This document shows positions 3,997 through 27,693 of a stretch of 36,991 nt of DNA, one piece after another. The DNA is from Phytoactinopolyspora halotolerans (GTDB taxonomy: Bacteria; Actinomycetota; Actinomycetes; Jiangellales; Jiangellaceae), in assembly GCF_010550675.1 (NCBI RefSeq), contig NZ_JAAGOA010000006.1, positions 298,341 to 335,331 on the forward strand, written 5' to 3'. Both the position numbers and the translations under genes were made by a program. The notes under the pieces are model-generated. The model was not told the DNA's origin and made no database searches. It worked only from the letters and a program-made list of their open reading frames with translations. Positions within the stretch are counted from its first letter, which is position 1. Each line of letters starts with the position of its first letter.

Positions 3997-5604
3997 TCAG
4001 GCTAGGGCCCAGGCTCCGTGGTGGATGGTGAGGCCCATGGCGAGGAGTCGCCGCAGGTTGAGGGCTGCAACACGGTGGTGGAGCCAGTTGTTGTTCTTCT
4101 CGATCCCGCGGTAAGGCACCCGTCGAGCGCCTCTGGTGAGCCAGGCGATGGACCGTTCGACCATCGGCCGGTGCCGCCGGTATACGGTCTGGAAGCTGTC
4201 GTCAGCGGCCCGTTGCCGGTGCTCGCGCATGAGCTGGTCGTGCTCATGCATCTTGACCGTGCGGCCGGAAGTCGATGAGGTGCAGTGTTCGGCGAGTGGG
4301 CATTCGCGGCAAGCGATGCCGAACACGGCGTTGTTCTTCGCGGTGATCTTCCTGGTCACGCCTGCTGGACAGGTCAGGGTTCGAGCAGCGGCGTCATGGA
4401 CGAAGTCATCGATGGTGAAGCCGCCCTCGACCGCGGGCCGCAGCGGCCACGGCTTGAGCAGCGGTGTCCACTTCTTGCCGTGCAGAGTGTGGAGCATGTC
4501 GCCGGTGGCGTAGGCAGAGTCACCGAGCACTTCCACCTGCTGATCCGCGGTGATGGTGGCATCGGCGACGACGAGCTCGGCGCCCACGTTCGCGTCGGAG
4601 TGCTCGGTGCCGTTGGTCTTGGTCAGTGCGCACACGGTAGTCAGCCCGGTCTCAGGCTCCACCACCACGTGGGCCTTGAACCCGTCCTGGCGCCGCTCCC
4701 GGGTCTTGTGCGCGTGCCGGGTGTCCGGGTCCACGGTCGAGATCACCCGGTCCGGCGCGGTCTTACGGGCGATGCGCCAGCGGCCGTCGGTGCCATCGGA
4801 GTCCTCGGCCGGCTCCACGTCTTGGCCGGCGACCAGCGCCAGCAACGCGACCGCGTCGGCCGGCTTCCCGCCGTCCTGGGAGATCTGCTCCAGCCCGATC
4901 TGGTCGTCCAGCGCAGCAAGCAAGGCCAGCGCGTCGCCGACCAGCGCGGACACCAGCTCGTCGCGGGCGGCCGGGTCGTCCCAGGCGATCGGAGGCTTCC
5001 CGGGCGAGTGGTAGTCCTGCCCGCTCCGCTCGGCCAGCCGGGTGCAGTACACCGCAATCAGGTCCTCGGCGCCGGGCACCTCCCGGCCCACTCGGCGGAT
5101 CTGGGCGATCAGCTGGGTGACGGTGTCCTGGCGGGCGACCGCGTCGTCGAGGATGGTGGAGTCCAGCGCCCGGCGCTGTTTACCGGCCACCGCACCGGTT
5201 TCGGTGATGACCTCGCGGACCACCTCGAAGATCCGCTGCGGCCGGTCGCTAGCGGCCAGCCGGCGCCTCCAGTAGGTCAACGTCGAGGGATCGAAGCCCT
5301 TCGCATCGATCGCGAACCCACACGCTGCCTTCCACCGCAGGTCGAAGGTCAGTGCGTCGACCGCTTCGCGGTCCGAATGCCCGTACAGCGCCTGAAGCAC
5401 GATCACCGAGGCGATCACCTCGCCCGGGATCGAGGGCCGACCCCGCCCCGAGGGGAACAAATCAGCAAACAACACGCCCGGGAACAGCCGATCGCGGTGC
5501 TCGGCGAGCAACGCGAACACACTGCCCGGCTCGAGTAAGTGCCCAGCCACCGACTCCACATCCAGCAGCTCCCGCTGCCGATCCGATTCACCCTGCACAC
5601 CCAC
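3997..5604 (-). CDS. IS1182-family DDE transposase
   Basis: A 535-residue transposase that cuts and joins the element's ends. The N-terminal DUF772-like region (about 30-120, with GVLFADLFPSGRGRPSIP and VIVLQALYGHSDREAVDAL) precedes an RNase-H-type DDE domain. The likely triad is Asp148 in ALDST, Asp362 in GDSAYATGD and Glu483 in RRHRPMVERSIAWL. A Cys cluster (432, 435, 441; ACRECPLAEHC) before the last catalytic residue is typical of IS1182 proteins. There is no frameshift or stop, so it may be active. The start at 5604 leaves 43 bp to the right inverted repeat, enough room only for a promoter overlapping the end. The left inverted repeat lies 181 bp beyond the stop. Confidence 0.9.
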   Translation of the reverse strand: MGVQGESDRQRELLDVESVAGHLLEPGSVFALLAEHRDRLFPGVLFADLFPSGRGRPSIPGEVIASVIVLQALYGHSDREAVDALTFDLRWKAACGFAIDAKGFDPSTLTYWRRRLAASDRPQRIFEVVREVITETGAVAGKQRRALDSTILDDAVARQDTVTQLIAQIRRVGREVPGAEDLIAVYCTRLAERSGQDYHSPGKPPIAWDDPAARDELVSALVGDALALLAALDDQIGLEQISQDGGKPADAVALLALVAGQDVEPAEDSDGTDGRWRIARKTAPDRVISTVDPDTRHAHKTRERRQDGFKAHVVVEPETGLTTVCALTKTNGTEHSDANVGAELVVADATITADQQVEVLGDSAYATGDMLHTLHGKKWTPLLKPWPLRPAVEGGFTIDDFVHDAAARTLTCPAGVTRKITAKNNAVFGIACRECPLAEHCTSSTSGRTVKMHEHDQLMREHRQRAADDSFQTVYRRHRPMVERSIAWLTRGARRVPYRGIEKNNNWLHHRVAALNLRRLLAMGLTIHHGAWALA

Positions 5605-5740: not shown

Positions 5741-6178
5741 CTAGAAGCCGCGCACGCGCGTGATCCGGATCCGGATCGGAGCCGAATACGTGGCGGCGAA
5801 CTGCTCCACGCTGCCGACGACACTGATCATGTCCTCGCGGTATTTCGCCAGGTACTGCGGTGACGCATCGGGAGCGGGAAGATCGTCGGCAAGCTCCGCG
5901 CGCCCGGTCATCACGATGATGTCGCCGCCGGTGCTGGTCCCGTTGAAGTGCAACGACACCTGCGGGTGCGCCTCGATGTGCGCGAGCCGGTGCGCCTTGT
6001 GATCGCTGTACGCGATGATCTCGTCGTCACCGGTCCAGAGGAACCAGACCGGGTTCGGTTGCGGAGTGCCGTCCTTGCTGACCGTGGTGAGCCAGATGAC
6101 CTGCTCTGCCTTCAGGCGTGTGCGCACGCGCTCGCCGAACGGGGTCTCTGGGCTGGGCAACACGTCTTCTGTCGTCAT
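5741..6178 (-). CDS. Pyridoxamine 5'-phosphate oxidase-like FMN/F420-binding protein
   Basis: A 145-residue split-beta-barrel protein of the PPOX class. The core WLTTVSKDGTPQPNPVWFLW, then EIIAYSDHKAHRLAHIEAHPQVSLHF, is typical of actinobacterial TIGR03667/Rv3369-type proteins that bind F420 or FMN. The substrate is not known. The start MTTEDVLPSPETPFGERV at 6178 gives the usual length. An in-frame ATG at 6211 would add 11 residues and overlap the sigma factor stop. It lies 29 bp behind the sigma factor gene on the same strand and is probably co-transcribed with it, making it a candidate member of the sigma-factor operon. Confidence 0.8.
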   Translation of the reverse strand: MTTEDVLPSPETPFGERVRTRLKAEQVIWLTTVSKDGTPQPNPVWFLWTGDDEIIAYSDHKAHRLAHIEAHPQVSLHFNGTSTGGDIIVMTGRAELADDLPAPDASPQYLAKYREDMISVVGSVEQFAATYSAPIRIRITRVRGF

Positions 6179-6207
6179 GTCACGGCAAACACTGTGTCGT
6201 GGCCGTG

Positions 6208-7476
6208 TCATCCCGGCTGAGCACGCGTCTGTGCGAGCTGGTCGCGGCGACGGGTGAGGTAGGCGATCTCGGCGGTGTTGCCGGACAGCTCGATGGCCCG
6301 GTCGTAGGCGGCGCGCGCCTGCCGGCCGCGGCCGAGCCGGCGCAGCAGGTCGGCGCGGGTCGCATGGTAAGCGTGGTATCCGGCCAGCGTGTCCTCGAGG
6401 CGGTCGACCGCCGTCAGCGCCACGTCGGGACCGTCCAGTTCGGCGACCGCGATGGCCCGGTTGAGGACGACGATCGGCGAGGCATCGATGCGGACAAGCT
6501 GGTCGTAGAGTGCGACGACCTGTGCCCAGTCGGTGTCGCGTACGTCCCGGGCGGACGTGTGCACGGCGTTGATGGCCGCGAGGATCTGGTAGCGACCCGG
6601 CGCCACTCCGGCAGCGGCGGCGGCGAGGCGCTCGCGCACCAGCCGATGACCCTCGGCGATCAGTGCCGCGTCCCAAGCGCCACGGTCTTGCTCGTCGATG
6701 GCGACCAGTTCGCCGCTCGCCGAGATCCGGGCGTCGCGCCGGGCTTCGATCAGCAGCATCAGCGCCAGTAGCCCGGCCACCTCGCCGTCCTCGGGCATCA
6801 GCGCACGGATCAGGCGGGTGAGCCGGATCGCCTCGGCGGTGAGGTCGGACCGGACGGGATCGGTTCCGGGCCCGGTGGCCAGGTAGCCCTCGTTGAAGAC
6901 GAGGTACAGCACGGCGAGGACACCGGAGAGGCGAGGTGAAAGATCGTCGGCGGACGGCACCCGGTACGGAATGCGCGCCGCCTTGATCTTGGCTTTCGCA
7001 CGGGTGATCCGCTGCCCCATGGCGCTCTCCTGCACCAGGAAGGCGCGCGCGATCTCTGCCACGGTCAGACCGCCGATCATGCGTAGCGTCAGCGCGACGC
7101 GGGATTCCATCGCCAACGCCGGGTGGCAGCAGGTGAAGATCAGCCGGAGCCGGTCGTCGTCGATGGCGCCGAGAGGCACAGACGGCACAGCCGGGTTGTC
7201 GTACAACATCTGAGCCTCCTTGTGTTTGTCGTCGCGCTTGCTCTCGCGCCGTATCCGGTCGATCGCCTTGCGGTTGGCCGTGGTGGTCAGCCAGGCCCCG
7301 GGGTTGGGAGGTATGCCGTCGGCGGGCCACCGCTCGACGGCGGTCGCGAACGCCTCGGCCGCCGCCTCCTCGGCAACGTCGAGGTCACCGAAACGGCGGG
7401 TCAGCGCGGCGACCACGCGGGCCCACTCCTGCTGGTGAGCCCGCGTGATCGCTTCCTGGACGTCGGCGAGGTTCAC
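6208..7476 (-). CDS. ECF sigma factor, ECF42 type (sigma with C-terminal TPR-like extension)
   Basis: A 422-residue RNA polymerase sigma factor. Region 2 lies at about residues 10-75 (AEEAAAEAFATAVERWP, GAWLTTTANRKAIDRIRRES) and region 4 at about 105-170 (LRLIFTCCHPALAMESRVAL, LTVAEIARAFLVQESAMGQR). A roughly 250-residue helical extension follows, with TPR-like repeats near the end (HATRADLLRRLGRGRQARAA). FTCCHPAL and the long extension are hallmarks of the ECF42 group. This group is known to be linked to a DGPF/YCII protein and appears to work without a classical anti-sigma factor. The GTG at 7476 was chosen because it overlaps the upstream YCII stop in GTGA, suggesting translational coupling. 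The frame is open for about 190 more codons upstream, but those lie across the YCII gene in another frame. Probably autoregulated from the element at 7871-7920. Confidence 0.88.
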   Translation of the reverse strand: MNLADVQEAITRAHQQEWARVVAALTRRFGDLDVAEEAAAEAFATAVERWPADGIPPNPGAWLTTTANRKAIDRIRRESKRDDKHKEAQMLYDNPAVPSVPLGAIDDDRLRLIFTCCHPALAMESRVALTLRMIGGLTVAEIARAFLVQESAMGQRITRAKAKIKAARIPYRVPSADDLSPRLSGVLAVLYLVFNEGYLATGPGTDPVRSDLTAEAIRLTRLIRALMPEDGEVAGLLALMLLIEARRDARISASGELVAIDEQDRGAWDAALIAEGHRLVRERLAAAAAGVAPGRYQILAAINAVHTSARDVRDTDWAQVVALYDQLVRIDASPIVVLNRAIAVAELDGPDVALTAVDRLEDTLAGYHAYHATRADLLRRLGRGRQARAAYDRAIELSGNTAEIAYLTRRRDQLAQTRAQPG

Positions 7477-8779: not shown

Positions 8780-9412
8780 ATGTCGATCGCGATGCAGGGG
8801 TCCCTGTTCGACAGCTCCGTGTCCGCGCCGGAACTGGGCGAGCTGGGAGCGACGGTGCGGCGAACCGAGCTGACGGCCGGTGCATGGATCGATGTCCGGC
8901 CCGGTTGGCTCGGCGGGGCGGACGAGCTGTTCACCCGCCTGGTGGACGTGGTGCCATGGCGTGCCGAGCGGCGGCAGATGTACGAGCGTGTCGTCGACGT
9001 GCCGCGCCTGGTCTGCTGGTACGGCGAGGAGGACCGGTTGCCGGATCCCGTACTCGAGCAGGCGAAGGCGGCCCTGAGCGCCCACTACCGGGATGAGCTG
9101 GGCGAGCCGTTCCTGACCGCAGGTTTGTGTTTCTATCGCGACGGGCGGGACAGCGTCGCCTGGCACGGCGACACCATCGGCCGCAGCAAAACGGAGGACA
9201 CGATGGTGGCGATCCTGTCCGTCGGCGAGCCCAGGTCGCTGCTACTGCGCCCGCGCAGCGGCGGCGAGTCGCTGCGTTTCCACCTCGGACACGGAGATCT
9301 GCTGGTGATGGGTGGGTCGTGCCAGCGGACCTGGGAGCACGCCGTACCGAAGACGGCACGGCCGGTGGGACCGCGGATCAGTATCCAGTTCCGGCCGCGC
9401 GGCGTGGCCTGA
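8780..9412 (+). CDS. AlkB-type 2-oxoglutarate/Fe(II) DNA repair dioxygenase
   Basis: A 210-residue cytosolic dioxygenase that oxidatively removes alkyl groups (1-methyladenine, 3-methylcytosine type lesions) from nucleic acid. The double-stranded beta-helix core is present: FYRDGRDSVAWHGD supplies the HxD pair (His129, Asp131), WEHAVPK the distal His187, and RISIQFR the two arginines (199 and 205) that hold 2-oxoglutarate and define AlkB. The PRLVCWYG segment is the usual substrate-side loop. The gene stands alone, behind a LexA-type site, so it appears to be damage-inducible through the SOS regulon rather than an Ada regulon. It converges on the anthranilate synthase gene, with a hairpin in the 132-bp gap. 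Confidence 0.88.
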   Translation: MSIAMQGSLFDSSVSAPELGELGATVRRTELTAGAWIDVRPGWLGGADELFTRLVDVVPWRAERRQMYERVVDVPRLVCWYGEEDRLPDPVLEQAKAALSAHYRDELGEPFLTAGLCFYRDGRDSVAWHGDTIGRSKTEDTMVAILSVGEPRSLLLRPRSGGESLRFHLGHGDLLVMGGSCQRTWEHAVPKTARPVGPRISIQFRPRGVA

Positions 9413-9544: not shown

Positions 9545-11593
9545 TCAGTGCTGAGCGCGCACCGGCGCCAGCACATCGCTGACCAGATCGTGCAGGAGAT
9601 CGATGCCGTCTGTGGACAGGATCGACTCCAGGTGGAACTGGACCGAGGCGAAGCCGTCGCCCCTCAATGCGTGCACGTCACCGGTGTCGGCATCGGCGGC
9701 GATCCGTAATCCTGCCGGGACGTCGGCGGATGTCGGGACGTCGACCGGTGCACGGGAGTCAAGCATCGTACGGGCGGTGTACGTGTTGTAGAAGCCGACG
9801 CGCGTCCGGCGTCCGAACAGATCGATCTCCCGCTGGGTGCCCTGGTACGGCTGGGCCAGCGGGACCACGGGAAACCCGAGAATGTCGGCGAGCATCTGAT
9901 GACTGAGGCAGACCGCCAGCAGCGGCCGCTGGTCGGCCAGCCTTCGTGTCACCAGGTACCGCATCCGCCTGATCCGCGGATCACTGGTGTCCCGCGGATC
10001 GCCCGGGCCGGGTCCGGCCACCATGAGGTCATGGCGGACCGTGTCGCCGACCTCGCTCCAGCGCCGCACCTCCGCGACCATGCCCAGGCGACGGAGCAGG
10101 TGTGCGAACATCGCCGTCCAGCCGTCCTCGACGTCGATCACGACGGCCGATCGTCCGTCGAGCGGCGGCCGTCCGTCCGGCGGCTGTGGCTCGTCGAACG
10201 AGGCCGATCCGTGGAGCGTGGCTGAGCCGCCGTCGCTGTGATCATGTAGCCAGAACGGCGCCAGCGTGGCGTTGCGCAGCGTCAACGCCTCGCCGACGCC
10301 CGGATACTCGAGCAACGGAGCCGCCGCCCGCCCGTCGTCGGTCGCCGGCTCGACCGGCTTCGCGTGCAGGCCCAGCGCGGTGAGTACGCCGGCGGCCTTG
10401 ACGTGCGTCTCGTGCACCTCGTGTCCGGAGATCGAATGCCGCACCAGCGTGGCACCCACCGGCACGCGGACCGTGCCGTCGGGGTCGATGTAGGCGGTGC
10501 GGATCAGGATGGGTGCGTCGAGCACCTGTCGTCCACCGGCGTCGTGCCCGATCAGGGCGGCGACACCGGCGTAGTAGCCGCGTCCGTTCTGCTCGTACCT
10601 GGTGATGATCCGCGCCGCGTTCTCCACCGGCGAGCCGGTGACCGTCGGCGCGAACATCGTCTCGCGGAGTACGTCCCGCACGTCCATCCGGGATCTGCCC
10701 TGCAGAAGGTACTCGGTGTGCACCAGATGGCCCATCTCCTTCAGGAACGGACCGACCACCTGGCCGCCCTCATGGCACACCCGGCTCATCATCTTCAGTT
10801 CCTCGTCGACCGCCATGAACAGCTCCTCGGTCTCCTTCGCGTCGGCGAGGAAGCGGAGCAGCCCGGCGCCGCTGGCACCTTCCCGGGGCGGTCGGTAGGT
10901 GCCGCTGATCGGGTTCATGACGACGGTGCCGTCGGCGACGCTGACGTGCCGTTCGGGCGTCGCGCCGACCATGGTCACGTCTCCCGCATGCACGACGAAG
11001 GTCCAGTATGCGTTGGGTTCGCCGAGCAGGAGCCGGCGGAACAGCCGCAGCGCGGCATGCGGCACCGAGCCGTGGAGTCGGGCCCGATAATCCCGCCGGA
11101 TGACGAAGTTCGCCCCTTCGCCGCGGCCGATCTCGTCGCGGATCACCGCCCCGACGATCTCGCCGTACGCGTCGTCGTCGATGTCGAATCCGTGCCCGGT
11201 GACCTCGACCGGTGTGTCCGGGATGGCGGCGAGCACGTCGTCCGGTGTGAGGACGGCATGCTCGCGGACCATCAGGCAGCGCAGCGGCGTCCCGTCGTCG
11301 TGACAGGCGAAGCCTCGTTCGGTGACCTGCCGGTACGGCACGAGCGCCAGTACCCGTGGAACCGCGAGGGAGGTGGGCGCGGTGGCGGGCGGGTCATCCG
11401 TGCGGTGACCGGGGCGATCGTCGGTGCTGTGGTGGGCAGAGGTGCGCGGCGGAGGGATCGGCACGTCGCCGAGGCGGTCGACGTCGATCGTCTCGCCGAG
11501 GAGCAGGTCGATTCCTGTGCCGTCGGCGCGGCGCAGCAGCGCGAACGGCTCAGGTGTGTCGCTCTCCACGACAGCGGTGAGCGGATCGGTCAT
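9545..11593 (-). CDS. Fused anthranilate / 2-amino-2-desoxyisochorismate synthase (TrpE-TrpG, PhzE-like)
   Basis: A 682-residue two-domain enzyme that aminates chorismate with ammonia from glutamine. The chorismate-binding domain (about 80-420) carries EGANFVIRRDYRARLHG, NAYWTFVVHAGD, the PISGTYRPPREGA loop, VDEELKMM and FAPTVTGSPVENAARII. The glutamine amidotransferase domain (about 480-680) has Cys562 in LLAVCLSHQ with His654 and Glu656 in QFHLES. The sequence is close to PhzE of phenazine producers, including AVCLSHQ and RVGFYNT(Y/F). It also matches what I know of fused TrpEG proteins of streptomycetes. The product could therefore be anthranilate (tryptophan) or ADIC (secondary metabolism). 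The trp attenuator upstream argues for a role tied to tryptophan supply. A low-complexity linker rich in Asp/His/Thr lies at about 50-75. No phz or other trp gene is beside it. Confidence 0.88.
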   Translation of the reverse strand: MTDPLTAVVESDTPEPFALLRRADGTGIDLLLGETIDVDRLGDVPIPPPRTSAHHSTDDRPGHRTDDPPATAPTSLAVPRVLALVPYRQVTERGFACHDDGTPLRCLMVREHAVLTPDDVLAAIPDTPVEVTGHGFDIDDDAYGEIVGAVIRDEIGRGEGANFVIRRDYRARLHGSVPHAALRLFRRLLLGEPNAYWTFVVHAGDVTMVGATPERHVSVADGTVVMNPISGTYRPPREGASGAGLLRFLADAKETEELFMAVDEELKMMSRVCHEGGQVVGPFLKEMGHLVHTEYLLQGRSRMDVRDVLRETMFAPTVTGSPVENAARIITRYEQNGRGYYAGVAALIGHDAGGRQVLDAPILIRTAYIDPDGTVRVPVGATLVRHSISGHEVHETHVKAAGVLTALGLHAKPVEPATDDGRAAAPLLEYPGVGEALTLRNATLAPFWLHDHSDGGSATLHGSASFDEPQPPDGRPPLDGRSAVVIDVEDGWTAMFAHLLRRLGMVAEVRRWSEVGDTVRHDLMVAGPGPGDPRDTSDPRIRRMRYLVTRRLADQRPLLAVCLSHQMLADILGFPVVPLAQPYQGTQREIDLFGRRTRVGFYNTYTARTMLDSRAPVDVPTSADVPAGLRIAADADTGDVHALRGDGFASVQFHLESILSTDGIDLLHDLVSDVLAPVRAQH

Positions 11594-11647
11594 GGTTGGC
11601 TTCCCTTCGGGTCTTCAGACCTCGCCCGAGGGAGCCGAAACGACGAC

Positions 11648-11669
11648 GACCGCCTTGAACGAGGCGGTC
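11648..11669 (-). terminator. Attenuator terminator hairpin
   Basis: On the minus strand GACCGCCT, a six-base loop, then AGGCGGTC form a perfect 8-bp stem followed by GTCGTCGTTT. It lies 54 bases upstream of the synthase ATG and downstream of the leader peptide. Its 5' arm (11662-11669) can instead pair with AGGCGG at 11705-11700, which overlaps the leader stop codon, giving the antiterminator. Confidence 0.7.
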
Positions 11670-11703
11670 GCAACGTCGGATGTACGCGTCGGGTGGGCGC
11701 CGC

Positions 11704-11745
11704 CTAACCGGCGCGCCACCAGGAACCGAGCATGTGTGCGTACAT
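11704..11745 (-). CDS. trpL: Tryptophan-sensing leader peptide
   Basis: A 13-residue ORF, MYAHMLGSWWRAG, with tandem Trp codons (TGG TGG at 11721-11716) four codons before the stop. Size, position and Trp-Trp pair are those of trp leader peptides that control downstream transcription by ribosome stalling. The ATG lies seven bases behind the -10 box TACAGT, so the message is probably leaderless. An internal ATG at 11733 is a possible second start. When charged tRNA-Trp is scarce the ribosome would stall at the Trp codons and leave the antiterminator free to form. When it is plentiful the ribosome would reach the stop codon and mask AGGCGG, so the terminator forms. Confidence 0.75.
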   Translation of the reverse strand: MYAHMLGSWWRAG

Positions 11746-11752
11746 AGCGAGC

Positions 11753-11781
11753 ACTGTAGCGTCCCGTGCGCTCCTTGTCAC
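11753..11781 (-). promoter_or_regulatory. Promoter of the attenuated synthase transcript
   Basis: On the minus strand GTGACA (11781-11776), a 17-base spacer and TACAGT (11758-11753) form a good housekeeping-type promoter. Start of transcription is predicted at or next to the leader ATG (11745). Confidence 0.65.
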
Positions 11782-11917
11782 GATCACCACGGTCAGGCCT
11801 TGTGCGAGGGCGGTGAAACGAGCTGTTGGCCGTGCGGTCGCGTGCGTGACACGCGGCTGGCATGCTGGTGTCATTTCCGGTGAGCACGTTGGTCATATCC
11901 AACCTCGGGAGGTCCAC

Positions 11918-12568
11918 GTGTCCGGTTCGCTGACTGCCCGTGTCCGTCTCTGTCTCGCCCTCGTCGCCGCCGCGCTGGTCGTCGCCGTTCTCGCCCTGGT
12001 GGTGGACCCGTCGGCCACGGCCACCGCCCCTCGGATCCCGACCAAGACCACCGCCCAGGCCGAGCTCAACGCGCTGACCGTCGCCGCGGAGCGATCCATG
12101 AGCGGGTACTCCCGCGACAAGTTCCCGCACTGGGACACCGTCTCCGGGACCTGCAACGCCCGGGAACAGGTGCTCAAGCGAGACGGCATCGACGTGTCGG
12201 TCAACGGCGACTGCTATCCCACGTCCGGCCGCTGGTACAGCCCGTACGACGGGGTCACGCTCCACTCGCCGTCCGACGTCGACATCGACCACGTGGTACC
12301 GCTGGCCGAGGCCTGGCGCTCCGGTGCGAACAGCTGGTCCACGAGCAAGCGCCGCGAGTTCGCCAACGACCTGTACTGGCCGCAGCTCCGGGCCGTCTCC
12401 GCGGCCTCCAACCGCGCCAAGGGAGATCGCGACCCGACGGCGTGGAAGCCGCGTTCCGCGTACCACTGCACGTACGCCAAGATGTGGATCCGGACCAAGT
12501 ACCAATGGAAGCTGACCGTCCAGTCCGCGGAGAAGAGCGAGCTCCAGCGGATGATCAACACCTGTTAG
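11918..12568 (+). CDS. Exported HNH-family nuclease (DUF1524-like)
   Basis: A 216-residue protein with an N-terminal hydrophobic segment (about residues 9-30, LCLALVAAALVVAVLALVV) that is either a signal peptide or a membrane anchor. The body carries the HNH core: DIDHVVPLAEAWRSGAN supplies the metal and catalytic His, and FANDLYWPQLRAVSAASNRAKG followed by RDPTAWKP the Asn and later residues. Cys pairs (CNAREQ, GDCYP, YHCTY, final Cys) suggest disulfides, fitting an extracellular location. The GTG start at 11918 has GGGAGG five bases upstream. It is probably a secreted or surface DNase used for nutrient scavenging or defence; its target is unknown. The next small gene begins nine bases after its stop. 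Confidence 0.75.
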   Translation: MSGSLTARVRLCLALVAAALVVAVLALVVDPSATATAPRIPTKTTAQAELNALTVAAERSMSGYSRDKFPHWDTVSGTCNAREQVLKRDGIDVSVNGDCYPTSGRWYSPYDGVTLHSPSDVDIDHVVPLAEAWRSGANSWSTSKRREFANDLYWPQLRAVSAASNRAKGDRDPTAWKPRSAYHCTYAKMWIRTKYQWKLTVQSAEKSELQRMINTC

Positions 12569-25111: not shown

Positions 25112-25125
25112 AGGGAATGTACCGA

Positions 25126-25198
25126 TCGGCCGGGGTGCCTGAGGGCTGAGAACACACCCGCCGAACCTGATCCGGGTCATGCCGGCGCAGGGAGCCGA
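25126..25198 (+). promoter_or_regulatory. TPP riboswitch (THI element)
   Basis: The aptamer closes with TCGGC (25126-25130) pairing GCCGA (25194-25198). The conserved GGGGTGCC, GGGCTGAGA and GAACCTGATCCGGGTCATGCC-type segments and the final GCAGGGAG are all present in the right order. It binds thiamine pyrophosphate. It lies 70 bp before thiM. A CTCC in CGCCTCCC could pair with the GGAG of the thiM ribosome site, so control of translation is plausible. Confidence 0.93.
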
Positions 25199-25268
25199 CA
25201 CGGTAGTGCGGATACCCAGCAACATCTCCGCCGCCGACCGCCTCCCACCCCGGCAGGGAAGGAGCGCG

Positions 25269-26072
25269 ATGGCCGCCATGCCGACGCCCGCCGACGTGTG
25301 GGCGGCGTTCGACGCGATGCGGCAGCAAGGCCCGCTGGTGCAGAACATCACCAACTACGTCGCGATGGATCTCTCGGCTAATGCGCTGCTGGCGGCAGGG
25401 GCCTCGCCGGCTATGGTGCATGCTCGCGAAGAGGCCGCCGATTTCGCCGGAATCGCCGGAGCGGTGGTGGTGAACATCGGGACCTTGTCTCCGTCCTGGG
25501 TCGAGTCGATGCACGATGCGGCCCGGGTCGCCCGGGAACGCGGCACCCCGTGGGTGCTCGATCCGGTGGCTGCCGGCGCGACGTCGTACCGGACCAAGAC
25601 CGCGGCCGAACTGCTCGAGCTGAACCCGACCGTGGTGCGCGGAAACGCGAGCGAGATCCTGGCGCTCGCCGGCGCGGCGGGCAGCGGCAAGGGCGTGGAT
25701 TCGACCGACGCCTCGTCGGCCGCCGTCGACGCCGCCGCCGACCTGGCCGGTCGGACGGGCGGGGTGGTCGCGGTGACCGGGGATGTCGACGTGGTCACCG
25801 ACGGCACCCGCACCGTGCGTGTCACCGGCGGAGACCCGATGATGGCCAAGGTCACCGCGATGGGCTGCGCGGCCAGCGCGATCGTCGGGGCGTTCCTCGC
25901 CACCGCCGACGAGCCGCTGCTCGCTACCGTGTGCGCCCTCGCGGTGTTCGGCCTGGCCGGCGAGCGGGCGGCGGTGGGATCGCCAGGGCCCGGCACGCTG
26001 CGGTGGAGGCTGCTCGACGAGTTGTACACGCTCAATGAACGGGCGGTTATCTCCGGGGTCCGGCTCTCATGA
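25269..26072 (+). CDS. thiM: Hydroxyethylthiazole kinase
   Basis: A 267-residue kinase that phosphorylates 4-methyl-5-(2-hydroxyethyl)thiazole (salvage). Motifs: GPLVQNITNYVAMDLSANA and LLAAGASPAMV at the substrate site, WVLDPVAAGAT, VVRGNASEILALAG, and the C-terminal GGDPMMAKVTAMGCAASAIV anion hole with the catalytic Cys typical of ThiM. ATG 25269 follows AAGGAG and comes right after the TPP riboswitch. The stop overlaps thiE by four bases (ATGA). Expression should fall when TPP is plentiful. Confidence 0.94.
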   Translation: MAAMPTPADVWAAFDAMRQQGPLVQNITNYVAMDLSANALLAAGASPAMVHAREEAADFAGIAGAVVVNIGTLSPSWVESMHDAARVARERGTPWVLDPVAAGATSYRTKTAAELLELNPTVVRGNASEILALAGAAGSGKGVDSTDASSAAVDAAADLAGRTGGVVAVTGDVDVVTDGTRTVRVTGGDPMMAKVTAMGCAASAIVGAFLATADEPLLATVCALAVFGLAGERAAVGSPGPGTLRWRLLDELYTLNERAVISGVRLS

Positions 26073-26899
26073 TCGTCAGGCAGCGGCCACCCGGCGAGGA
26101 GCTGCCGGACCGATCCGGACTGGACGTGCGGCTCTACGTGGTGACCGACCCGTCGCTGGCGCCGGCCGACCGGCTGGTCGAGATGTGCTTGGCCGCCGTG
26201 GCCGGCGGCGCCACGCTGGTCCAGCTCAGGGATAAGCAGGCAAGCGACGATGAGCTACTGCGGCAGGCGGAGGCGCTGATGGACGCGCTGCGTCCGTCCG
26301 GTGTCCCGCTGGTGGTGAACGACCGCCTGGACGTCGCGCGACACGTCGGCGCCGGGCTGCACGTCGGCGTCCGGGATGCCCCGCCGTCGGCCGTCCGCCG
26401 CGAGCTGGGCGAGCAGGCGATCATCGGCTGGTCGGTCGAGACTCTCGAGCAGCTGTCGCCGTCCCTGGAGACGCTTCCCGAGCAGCGTGCGGCGGAGGAA
26501 TCCTCGGTGGGCGAATCGTCGGTGGCGCAGCGCCCGCCGGGTGAGACCGAGGCGTGCTCGTACCTGGCGGCCAGTCCGGTGTGGCGCACGCCCACCAAGA
26601 CGGACACCGCCGACGCCCTCGGCCCGCCCGGTGTCGCCGCCTTGCGCCGACGGACCTCGCTTCCGCTGGTCGGCATCGGCGGTATCAACACGCCGGAGCG
26701 AGCAGCTGAGGTGATCGCCGCCGGTGCCGACGGCGTCGCCGTGGTGTCCGGCGTCTTCGGCGCGGACGATCCCGAGGCCGCCGCGGCCGGGCTGCGCGCC
26801 GCGGTCGACGACGCGCTGCGCGCGCGGCGCTCGGATCCGCGGCAGCCACGCGGCCTCGAGCCACATGACCCCGAACAGCGAGGAGTGACGACCAGATGA
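26069..26899 (+). CDS. thiE: Thiamine-phosphate synthase
   Basis: A 276-residue TIM-barrel enzyme joining HMP-pyrophosphate and thiazole phosphate to make TMP. Motifs: LYVVTDPSLAP, GGATLVQLRDKQASDDELL, VPLVVNDRLDVARHVGAGLHVG, LVGIGGINTPERAAEVIAAG and DGVAVVSGVFGADDP. It is longer than the usual 210-220 residues because of an insertion of about 25 residues (about 137-167) rich in Glu/Ser/Ala between the IIGWSVET strand and YLAASPVWRTPTKTD, plus a charged tail of about 25 residues. It overlaps both neighbours by four bases (ATGA each), so thiM-thiE-thiD is translated as a coupled unit. Confidence 0.93.
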   Translation: MIVRQRPPGEELPDRSGLDVRLYVVTDPSLAPADRLVEMCLAAVAGGATLVQLRDKQASDDELLRQAEALMDALRPSGVPLVVNDRLDVARHVGAGLHVGVRDAPPSAVRRELGEQAIIGWSVETLEQLSPSLETLPEQRAAEESSVGESSVAQRPPGETEACSYLAASPVWRTPTKTDTADALGPPGVAALRRRTSLPLVGIGGINTPERAAEVIAAGADGVAVVSGVFGADDPEAAAAGLRAAVDDALRARRSDPRQPRGLEPHDPEQRGVTTR

Positions 26900-27693
26900 T
26901 CCCGACGGTTCTCTCGGTCGCCGGCTCGGACCCGTCCGGTGGTGCGGGCATACAGGCCGACCTGAAGACCTTCTCCGCGCTCGGGGCATACGGGGCCGCG
27001 GCGCTTACCGCTCTGACCGCGCAGAACACGCGCGGCGTGACCGGCGTCATGCCGGTGTCGGGCGAGTTCGTCGCGCAGCAGCTCTCCGCGCTCTTCGAGG
27101 ATTTGGACGTGCGGGCGGTGAAGACCGGGATGCTCGGCGATCCGGACGTCGTCGACGCGGTCGCGGCGGCGGTGCGGAAGTACTCGGTGCGCAACCTGGT
27201 GGTCGATCCGGTGATGGTGGCCACGTCGGGTGACCGGCTCGTCTCGGACGAGACGGTGGTCGCGATCCGGGATCGGTTGCTCCCGTTGGCCACCGTCCTC
27301 ACGCCGAACCTGCCGGAGACGGCGACGCTGCTCGGCTGGCCGGAGGTCGGCGCGGACCGGATGGCGGAGGCCGGCGCGGAACTGCGCGACCGGGGTGCCT
27401 CGGCCGTCGTCGTCAAGGGTGGGCATGGCGGCGGAGCGGAGGCGATCGATGTCCTGGTCGACGCCGACGGTGTGCACGAGCTGCGGGCGCCCCGCGTGGC
27501 CACCAAGAACACCCACGGCACGGGGTGCACGTTCTCGTCGGCGATCGCCGTCGGACTGGCGCACGGCAAACCGCTGCGCGACGCGGTCGAGGAGGCGAAG
27601 CGTTACCTCACCGACGCGCTGCGCGCGGCTGACACGCTGAGCGTCGGCGGGGGATACGGGCCGGTGCACCACTTCCACGCGATGTGGAGCTGA
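26896..27693 (+). CDS. thiD: Hydroxymethylpyrimidine / phosphomethylpyrimidine kinase
   Basis: A 265-residue ribokinase-fold enzyme that phosphorylates HMP and HMP-P to give HMP-PP. The N terminus VLSVAGSDPSGGAGIQADLK is diagnostic, followed by FSALGAYGAAALTALTAQNT, VVDPVMVATSGDRLV, LTPNLPETATLLG and the catalytic GTGCTFSSAIA motif (as HGTGCTFSS). It starts inside the thiE stop (ATGA). With thiM and thiE it forms the complete route from salvaged pyrimidine and thiazole to TMP. Confidence 0.95.
   Translation: MIPTVLSVAGSDPSGGAGIQADLKTFSALGAYGAAALTALTAQNTRGVTGVMPVSGEFVAQQLSALFEDLDVRAVKTGMLGDPDVVDAVAAAVRKYSVRNLVVDPVMVATSGDRLVSDETVVAIRDRLLPLATVLTPNLPETATLLGWPEVGADRMAEAGAELRDRGASAVVVKGGHGGGAEAIDVLVDADGVHELRAPRVATKNTHGTGCTFSSAIAVGLAHGKPLRDAVEEAKRYLTDALRAADTLSVGGGYGPVHHFHAMWS

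Follow-up and report, generated by a model that had tools for sequence, protein, structure and literature searches.

Results of our analysis indicate that trpEG of Phytoactinopolyspora halotolerans, a gene of the tryptophan pathway encoding a fused anthranilate synthase, is very probably controlled by a classical, ribosome-mediated trp attenuator. Judging from the arrangement of the leader, trpEG would most likely be switched on when tryptophan is short. The window referred to below is the whole stretch of DNA that was analysed (36,991 nt).

Organization of the trpEG leader region

The whole arrangement lies on the minus strand between positions 11781 and 11634 of the window and includes four RNA segments that can form the pairings 1:2, 2:3 or 3:4. 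Its parts, the elements that follow it, and trpEG itself are listed below.

11776-11781, minus strand: -35 box GTGACA, present also in the same-genus genome G002 and not conserved across Jiangellaceae
11753-11758, minus strand: -10 box TACAGT, separated from the -35 box by a 17-nt spacer and ending 7 nt before the leader ATG
11745-11704, minus strand: leader ORF of 13 codons encoding MYAHMLGSWWRAG, with ATG at 11745 and a TAG stop, predicted to be leaderless
11716-11721, minus strand: tandem Trp codons TGGTGG, the putative sensor
11710-11715, minus strand: segment 1, CGCGCC (Arg-Ala codons), able to pair with segment 2 if ribosome-free
11700-11705, minus strand: segment 2, AGGCGG, overlapping the leader stop; its GGCGG begins 11 nt past the last Trp codon
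11680-11687, minus strand: 3' side of the 5' stem, GCGTACAT, the partner of which, ATGTACGC, lies at 11738-11745
11662-11671, minus strand: segment 3, 5' arm of the putative terminator, GCGACCGCCT; CCGCCT inside it is the antiterminator partner
11646-11655, minus strand: segment 4, 3' arm of the putative terminator, AGGCGGTCGT
11634-11645, minus strand: poor U-tract CGTCGTTTCGGC (4 T in 12)
11608-11628, minus strand: second hairpin, directly 5' of the Shine-Dalgarno sequence, kept in most of 17 aligned family leaders
11602-11608, minus strand: Shine-Dalgarno-like sequence GAAGGGA of trpEG
9545-11593, minus strand: trpEG, encoding the 682 aa fused anthranilate synthase P0001 with Chorismate_bind and GATase domains

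The promoter that an earlier note on this DNA had proposed is present at its place and is the sole promoter-like site between 11500 and 12000 (mean number in shuffled sequences 0.0). As the -10 box lies 7 nt ahead of the ATG, the transcript most likely starts at the start codon (11745) or next to it. The short ORF with two adjacent Trp codons directly follows the promoter, as expected of an attenuator. This 13-codon leader and the ability of AGGCGG at its stop to pair with the 5' arm of the terminator stem had been claimed as well and were both found, the partner being CCGCCT of segment 3. The terminator stem, described previously as a perfect one of 8 bp, comprises 10 pairs, nine of which are Watson-Crick pairs and one a G-U pair, and two further parts that had gone unmentioned, segment 1 (CGCGCC) and the 5' stem (11738-11745/11680-11687), were added by our analysis. 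Since segments 1 and 3 are alike (CGCC, CCGCC) and segments 2 and 4 are alike (AGGCGG), the pairings 1:2, 2:3, and 3:4 are mutually alternative; the same alternative pairings characterize the textbook trp attenuator.

Folding of the 157-nt leader region, which had been suggested as a check, gave -78.8 kcal/mol (z = -4.26), and none of 200 shuffled sequences was as low. A scan for consensus terminators detected none at the 3:4 stem. At Rfam gathering scores the leader was unmatched, the sole match in the window being a TPP riboswitch located elsewhere.

Conservation of the leader and its spacing

Of 22 Jiangellaceae genomes, 19 encode a relative of the enzyme (E up to 1e-60). The regions upstream of 19 family loci were scanned, and the leader, often MYATVLGxWW[RP]AS, was found at 18 of them; the one locus of this set without a leader is that of the P. 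limicola copy (L007, 53% identical). A covariance model of 40 leaders detected the leader RNA in 18 of the 22 family genomes, each time immediately before trpEG, with one match in the genome of the window. Second, weaker matches to this model were present in genomes G004 (39.8 bits) and G005 (31.7 bits), the former preceding trpS, as identified with NCBIfam, and the latter preceding a homologue of this trpS. The peptides encoded by these trpS leaders are MLASWWWLP (L155 1501-1592, minus strand) and MTSVVFAWWPPLQAA (L156 1501-1584, minus strand). Both leaders have the same 11-nt spacing as the trpEG leaders, and the one of G004 is devoid of a -10 box at the spacing typical of the latter.

A leader with adjacent Trp codons is present within 600 bp upstream in 60 of the 80 best relatives listed, a set rich in Microbacterium, and a search of the phylum with stricter filters revealed the leader RNA in 14 of 296 genomes, including that of the window. 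The motif TANNNT occurs 6-8 nt ahead of the leader start in every one of the 83 trpEG leaders studied, 79 of which are distinct, as compared to 154 of 20304 ATG and GTG codons of this DNA; the figure of 83/83 is inflated, since the -10 spacing guided the choice of leader starts. Among these loci, conservation does not extend to the -35 box.

The distance between the last Trp codon and the antiterminator is nearly fixed. In a scan of 79 leaders, made without an RNA model, the first GGCGG past the last Trp codon was found at 11 nt in 66 leaders and at 12 nt in six; exact GGCGG is missing from the remaining seven, six of which have a variant at 10-12 nt, while in the seventh, Rhodococcus L029, GGCG lies 8 nt away. 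The end of the stop codon in the same leaders ranges between positions 2 nt ahead of GGCGG and 28 nt past its start. Twenty further matches to the model include 18 readable leaders with GGCG in range, at 11 nt in 15 and at 10 nt in three, and although none of the 18 contains an exact copy of a model row, they are supportive only and not an independent test, since the rows of the covariance model (R1) are nearly all 11-nt spaced. The stop codon of these 18 leaders, those of trpS included, ends between 2 nt before and 31 nt after the start of GGCG. Since a ribosome extends some 10 nt beyond the codon in its A site, segment 2 would lie just outside one stalled at Trp. The near-fixed distance, which is independent of the stop codon and is found also in the trpS leaders, may serve as a measure of the reach of the stalled ribosome.

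Competing pairings and the proposed mechanism

Covariation was evaluated in an alignment of 40 diverse leaders (A2), the structures being taken from the window's own sequence. The predicted terminator 3:4 is well supported by it: 93.7% of cells are paired, both sides are changed in five of ten pairs, and the score is 0.301 as compared to 0.149 for shuffled and at most 0.187 for slid versions, with no excess in the number of pair types over shuffles. Support for the predicted 5' stem is moderate (74.3% of cells paired, four of eight pairs changed on both sides, score of 0.147 vs. 0.102 shuffled and at most 0.103 slid). The putative antiterminator 2:3 is weakly supported. It is paired in 81.8% of cells, with two of eight pairs changed on both sides and a score of 0.088 (0.064 shuffled, at most 0.073 slid); 352 of 500 shuffles have as many covarying pairs and 496 of 500 as many pair types, and one slid version has a similar number of doubly changed cells (14 vs. 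13). The predicted 1:2 hairpin is supported by its conservation (91.2% of cells paired), with no covariation above that of shuffles. At the Kutzneria locus L084, segments 1, 2, and 3 are altered together (CCCGTC, AGACGG, and CCGTCT).

Folding in the presence of ribosomes could be followed for 70 of the 79 leaders; in the other nine, the hairpin chosen automatically was not suitable. The ribosome was assumed to extend 10 nt beyond the A site, a setting that by itself keeps segment 2 barely uncovered and thus favours the following result: as long as the RNA does not include segment 4, 2:3 has a probability above 0.5 in 67 of the 70 leaders if a ribosome is stalled with the last Trp codon in its A site, in none if it is located at the stop codon, and in 22 if there is no ribosome. 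The relevant probabilities for the window are 1.00, 0.00, and 0.00. When the A site was moved codon by codon, the mean probability of 2:3 was 0.28-0.45 at positions -7 to -4 relative to the last Trp codon, 0.80-0.95 at positions -3 to 0, 0.30 at position +1, and 0.00 beyond; the values for the window are 0.35, 1.00, 0.83, and 1.00 at positions -3 to 0, followed by 0.16 and 0.00. Once segment 4 is present, the probability of 3:4 exceeds 0.5 at equilibrium in 68 of 70 leaders, including that of the window, despite the stalled ribosome. Since 3:4 wins at equilibrium, antitermination would have to be kinetic, i.e., the polymerase would have to pass before 2:3 yields. Within this kinetic regime and with the assumed reach, the computed antiterminator and terminator are mutually exclusive and a stall at Trp selects the antiterminator. 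The logic of Trp-codon attenuation that had been proposed from the sequence is thus favoured by conservation, by folding, and by covariation, which is strong for the terminator and weak for the antiterminator; the Trp-Trp ORF and the stem, the conservation of which in relatives had been named as a check, are kept at 18 of 19 family loci (the leader) and covary in the 40 diverse leaders (the terminator).

We propose the following course of events. RNA polymerase would start at the leader ATG or next to it, and ribosomes would load on the leaderless transcript. If charged tRNA-Trp is scarce, a ribosome would stall with a Trp codon in its A site and with its leading edge over segment 1, ending just short of segment 2. 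The AGGCGG of segment 2 could then pair with CCGCCU in segment 3 while segment 4 is still to be transcribed, and the polymerase would enter trpEG. If tryptophan is plentiful, the ribosome would move to the stop codon and cover segment 2, which would permit the formation of 3:4 and end transcription. In a transcript with no ribosome, segment 2 would be held by segment 1 and the 5' stem, and 3:4 would end transcription as well.

The way in which transcription would end at 3:4 may differ from the classical one. Like that of the window, the U-tracts of the other family members are poor (1 to 5 T in 12), which would be consistent with termination that depends on Rho or on a pausing factor, while clear U-tracts in relatives of the same layout (several Microbacterium, Rhodococcus L029, and Embleya L033) argue against it. 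We consider such a dependence possible but rather unlikely; it would be a variant of the attenuation proposed here and not exclusive of it.

One might also suppose that the control is mainly translational, with the hairpin 11608-11628 hiding the Shine-Dalgarno sequence and the leader being merely an entry point. A stem beside the Shine-Dalgarno sequence is conserved in the majority of the 17 family leaders that were aligned, which fits this supposition, as do the two hairpins described between trpL1 and trpE of S. lividans in excerpts of PMC8079986 and the pairing of the Shine-Dalgarno sequence at two of 23 loci (L129 and L086), where it is clearly above that in shuffles. However, the mean pairing of this sequence over the 23 loci is 0.69 vs. 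0.60 with shuffled upstream sequence, the value of 0.80 for the window was reached by 15 of 100 shuffles, and the conserved spacing of the Trp codons and the covarying segments are located upstream of this hairpin. Mainly translational control is therefore highly improbable in our opinion. A role of the same hairpin as a second layer of control on top of attenuation was dropped as well, since the pairing hardly exceeds that in shuffles. We also rejected the opening of the second hairpin by a freed segment 4, as CCGCC, which it would require, occurs in Jiangella-like loci and is missing from the window, as judged by eye.

Relationship of the enzyme to TrpEG and PhzE

P0001 carries the TrpE and TrpG domains in one chain, like the enzymes of the SvTrpEG type. 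As the earlier note had stated, it looks most like PhzE: by sequence, its nearest solved structures are those of the set 3r74/3r75/3r76, which we take to be Burkholderia PhzE, with 563 bits as compared to 71 for the next one. The NCBIfam anthranilate synthase models score far under their cut-offs, TIGR01815 (rhizobial TrpE(G)) giving 141 bits, or 144 for the whole protein, vs. the cut-off of 739. Two options had been left open, namely that P0001 is the tryptophan pathway anthranilate synthase with a PhzE-like sequence or that it is a PhzE-type ADIC synthase of secondary metabolism whose gene has acquired Trp control. The likeness to PhzE, the low NCBIfam scores, and the presence of genes for a TetR-like regulator and two ABC transporters 1.3-6 kb upstream can all be taken in favour of the second option.

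The distribution of neighbouring genes and the phylogeny of the enzymes point to the first one. An isochorismatase gene of the PhzD type is the immediate upstream neighbour at the five annotated plasmid loci of PhzE-like enzymes that we inspected. A tblastn search with the five PhzD proteins of these loci (E up to 1e-15) revealed PhzD just upstream in 16 of the 80 best relatives listed, and in none of the 80 do the leader and PhzD occur together; two relatives (L065 and L088) have neither, and the upstream regions of two others (L080 and L093) are too short to judge. Extra copies were searched for in ten genomes. Five have more than one copy, exactly one of them leader-bearing in each case. 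The remaining copies are linked to PhzD; only L127 lacks both PhzD and a leader.

A quick tree was built from 77 of 119 rows, after removal of 14 duplicates and of 28 Microbacterium rows, and gave a long-branch warning. One of its branches, with a support of 96, has all 53 leader-bearing enzymes on the same side, and three label changes suffice, as compared to a mean of 21.6 for shuffled labels. A more careful tree comprised 55 rows, further close Microbacterium, Jiangella, and Streptomyces rows and the long branches L113 and L115 having been removed; the split of leader-bearing enzymes has a support of 85/53 in it and is present in 82% of 200 bootstrap trees. In both trees the enzyme of the window shares a clade with leader-bearing fused enzymes from Streptomyces, and PhzD-linked enzymes are placed elsewhere. 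Forcing it into a group with the 16 PhzD-linked rows was rejected (p-AU 4.6e-41), the group having been defined with knowledge of the quick tree. A search of the window with 11 phenazine-neighbour proteins (PhzB, PhzD, PhzF, PhzG, and DAHP synthases, the PhzC type included) gave no match at E up to 0.01, and the PNPOx-domain ORF located nearby encodes a member of an F420-dependent PPOX family (TIGR03667).

Among relatives, TrpEG of S. venezuelae is said to act as an anthranilate synthase rather than as an ADIC synthase, although it resembles PhzE (an excerpt of PMC3111181, which cites Ashenafi 2008 and is thus a second-hand source). Lim6, a PhzE-like enzyme of a gene cluster, forms mostly ADIC and little anthranilate, according to an excerpt of PMC5958127, which indicates that the activity is not readable from sequence alone. 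As P0001 groups with leader-bearing enzymes, away from the PhzD-linked ones, and no phenazine neighbours were found in the window, the reading of P0001 as a tryptophan pathway enzyme that resembles PhzE is supported, its activity being suggested by analogy to S. venezuelae TrpEG. That it is an ADIC synthase brought under Trp control seems very hard to reconcile with these results. The gene is thereby placed, as far as sequence allows, within the PhzE-like 'anthranilate synthase family proteins', and a rule for the annotation of the latter may be suggested, according to which a Trp-Trp leader would indicate an enzyme of the tryptophan pathway and a PhzD neighbour the ADIC branch.

Genomic context

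The genome (7.3 Mb, 65 contigs) encodes a second, ordinary TrpE of 513 aa on contig 11, found in the search for another trpE that had been proposed for this genome. It scores over the NCBIfam cut-off and is encoded just 3' of a phosphoribosyl-AMP cyclohydrolase ORF, and no Trp leader was found in the 1.5 kb upstream of its gene. A match to the amidotransferase part is on contig 1 and trpA is on contig 5. The TrpE of contig 11 has the motif LLES, presumably a part of the Trp feedback site; the exact motif is missing from P0001 and from 75 of the 77 tree rows, which is a rough count as many rows were trimmed at the match start. A division of labour, with one enzyme under feedback and the other under attenuation, is plausible.

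The following ORFs are located in the vicinity of trpEG.

8780-9412: AlkB-type oxygenase, beside trpEG
11732-12568, plus strand: divergent ORF with a GmrSD_C domain, the listed start of which is within the leader
5741-7330: PNPOx-domain ORF of the TIGR03667 family mentioned above

A likelier start of the divergent ORF, as judged by eye, is a GTG after GGGAGG near 11910. The genes of the TetR-like regulator and the two ABC transporters are also beside trpEG, and relatives of the oxygenase, the regulator or the first transporter occur near trpEG in several family loci. The product of the PNPOx-domain ORF has no likeness to PhzG at E up to 0.01. An ORF at 3997-5604 (minus strand) contains transposase DDE and DUF772 domains. 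SerA-, LeuB-, and IlvE-like genes and thiamine genes are located 14-25 kb off trpEG; the TPP riboswitch (25121-25210, plus strand) lies ahead of ORFs at 25179-27693, which contain hydroxyethylthiazole kinase, TMP synthase, and phosphomethylpyrimidine kinase domains.

Both a leader and PhzD are missing from the P. limicola copy (L007/L088), which is placed in the quick tree just outside the leader-bearing rows. In its region (L134 3363-9414), the neighbouring genes encode a phosphatidylserine decarboxylase-like protein, a sodium symporter, an FAD aromatic hydroxylase, and a dehydrogenase. Judging from them, this copy looks like one of a different pathway context, and the region may possibly be a biosynthetic cluster.

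Comparison with known systems

A trp attenuator of Streptomyces venezuelae trpEG was reportedly described by Lin, Paradkar and Vining in 1998. Like the one proposed here, it would act by Trp-dependent attenuation of a fused anthranilate synthase gene; the link between the two runs via other Streptomyces loci with the published leader type. The Streptomyces-type leaders that we examined have three Trp codons and a stop that ends 13 nt past the start of GGCGG, whereas the leader of the window has two Trp codons and a stop that overlaps segment 2.

Homology to rhizobial rnTrpL was considered and dropped. We take RcsR1 (RF02552) and rnTrpL to be two names of the same RNA. The Rfam match of RcsR1 at the leader has 27.5 bits, far below the gathering score of 60, and three related leaders, in stretches of the same length (311 bases), gave no match at E up to 1. 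A search of ten loci (68 kb) at E up to 0.1 revealed none either, at which threshold a match as weak as that of the window would be missed. Moreover, rhizobial TrpE(G) belongs to another fusion family, as the TIGR01815 score of P0001 (141 vs. the cut-off of 739) illustrates. What the two systems would share is a transcript that starts from the trpL ATG and Trp attenuation of a fused trpE(G), as described for rnTrpL in excerpts of PMC7298713. By analogy, the terminated leader RNA of about 100 nt, itself leaderless and expected whenever tryptophan is plentiful, might act in trans as an sRNA or via the 13 aa peptide. We regard this as very doubtful; if true, a trans role like that of rhizobial rnTrpL/peTrpL would have arisen separately in Actinobacteria.

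The actinobacterial trp attenuators of Seliverstov 2005 (excerpts of PMC1262725) have double or triple UGG codons and GC-rich complementary triples common to the antiterminator and the terminator, as does the leader of the window. They concern Corynebacterium and Streptomyces, with no Jiangellaceae among the genomes listed in these excerpts, and all their terminators are said there to have poly-U tracts, while the tract of the window is poor. The literature that we searched, in which subscription papers are thinly covered, contained no description of such a leader for Jiangellaceae nor of the fixed spacing, which is weak evidence of absence.

The closest published counterpart with regard to the leader is that of S. 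lividans TK24, where a leaderless trpL1 before trpE has been published. According to excerpts of PMC8079986, it shares with the system described here the leaderless leader, a predicted one in the window, tandem Trp codons, two downstream hairpins, and a monocistronic trpE; it differs in the peptide (MFAHSTRNWWWTAHPAAH vs. MYAHMLGSWWRAG in the window) and in having a uridine-enriched stretch where that of the window is poor. In S. werraensis (L130), the peptide MFAHSTRTWWWTAHPAAH, which differs by one residue from trpL1 of S. lividans as given in the same excerpts, is encoded before a relative of our enzyme. The layout of the attenuator of P. halotolerans thus matches those of the published Streptomyces cases, and the switch is of a known kind.
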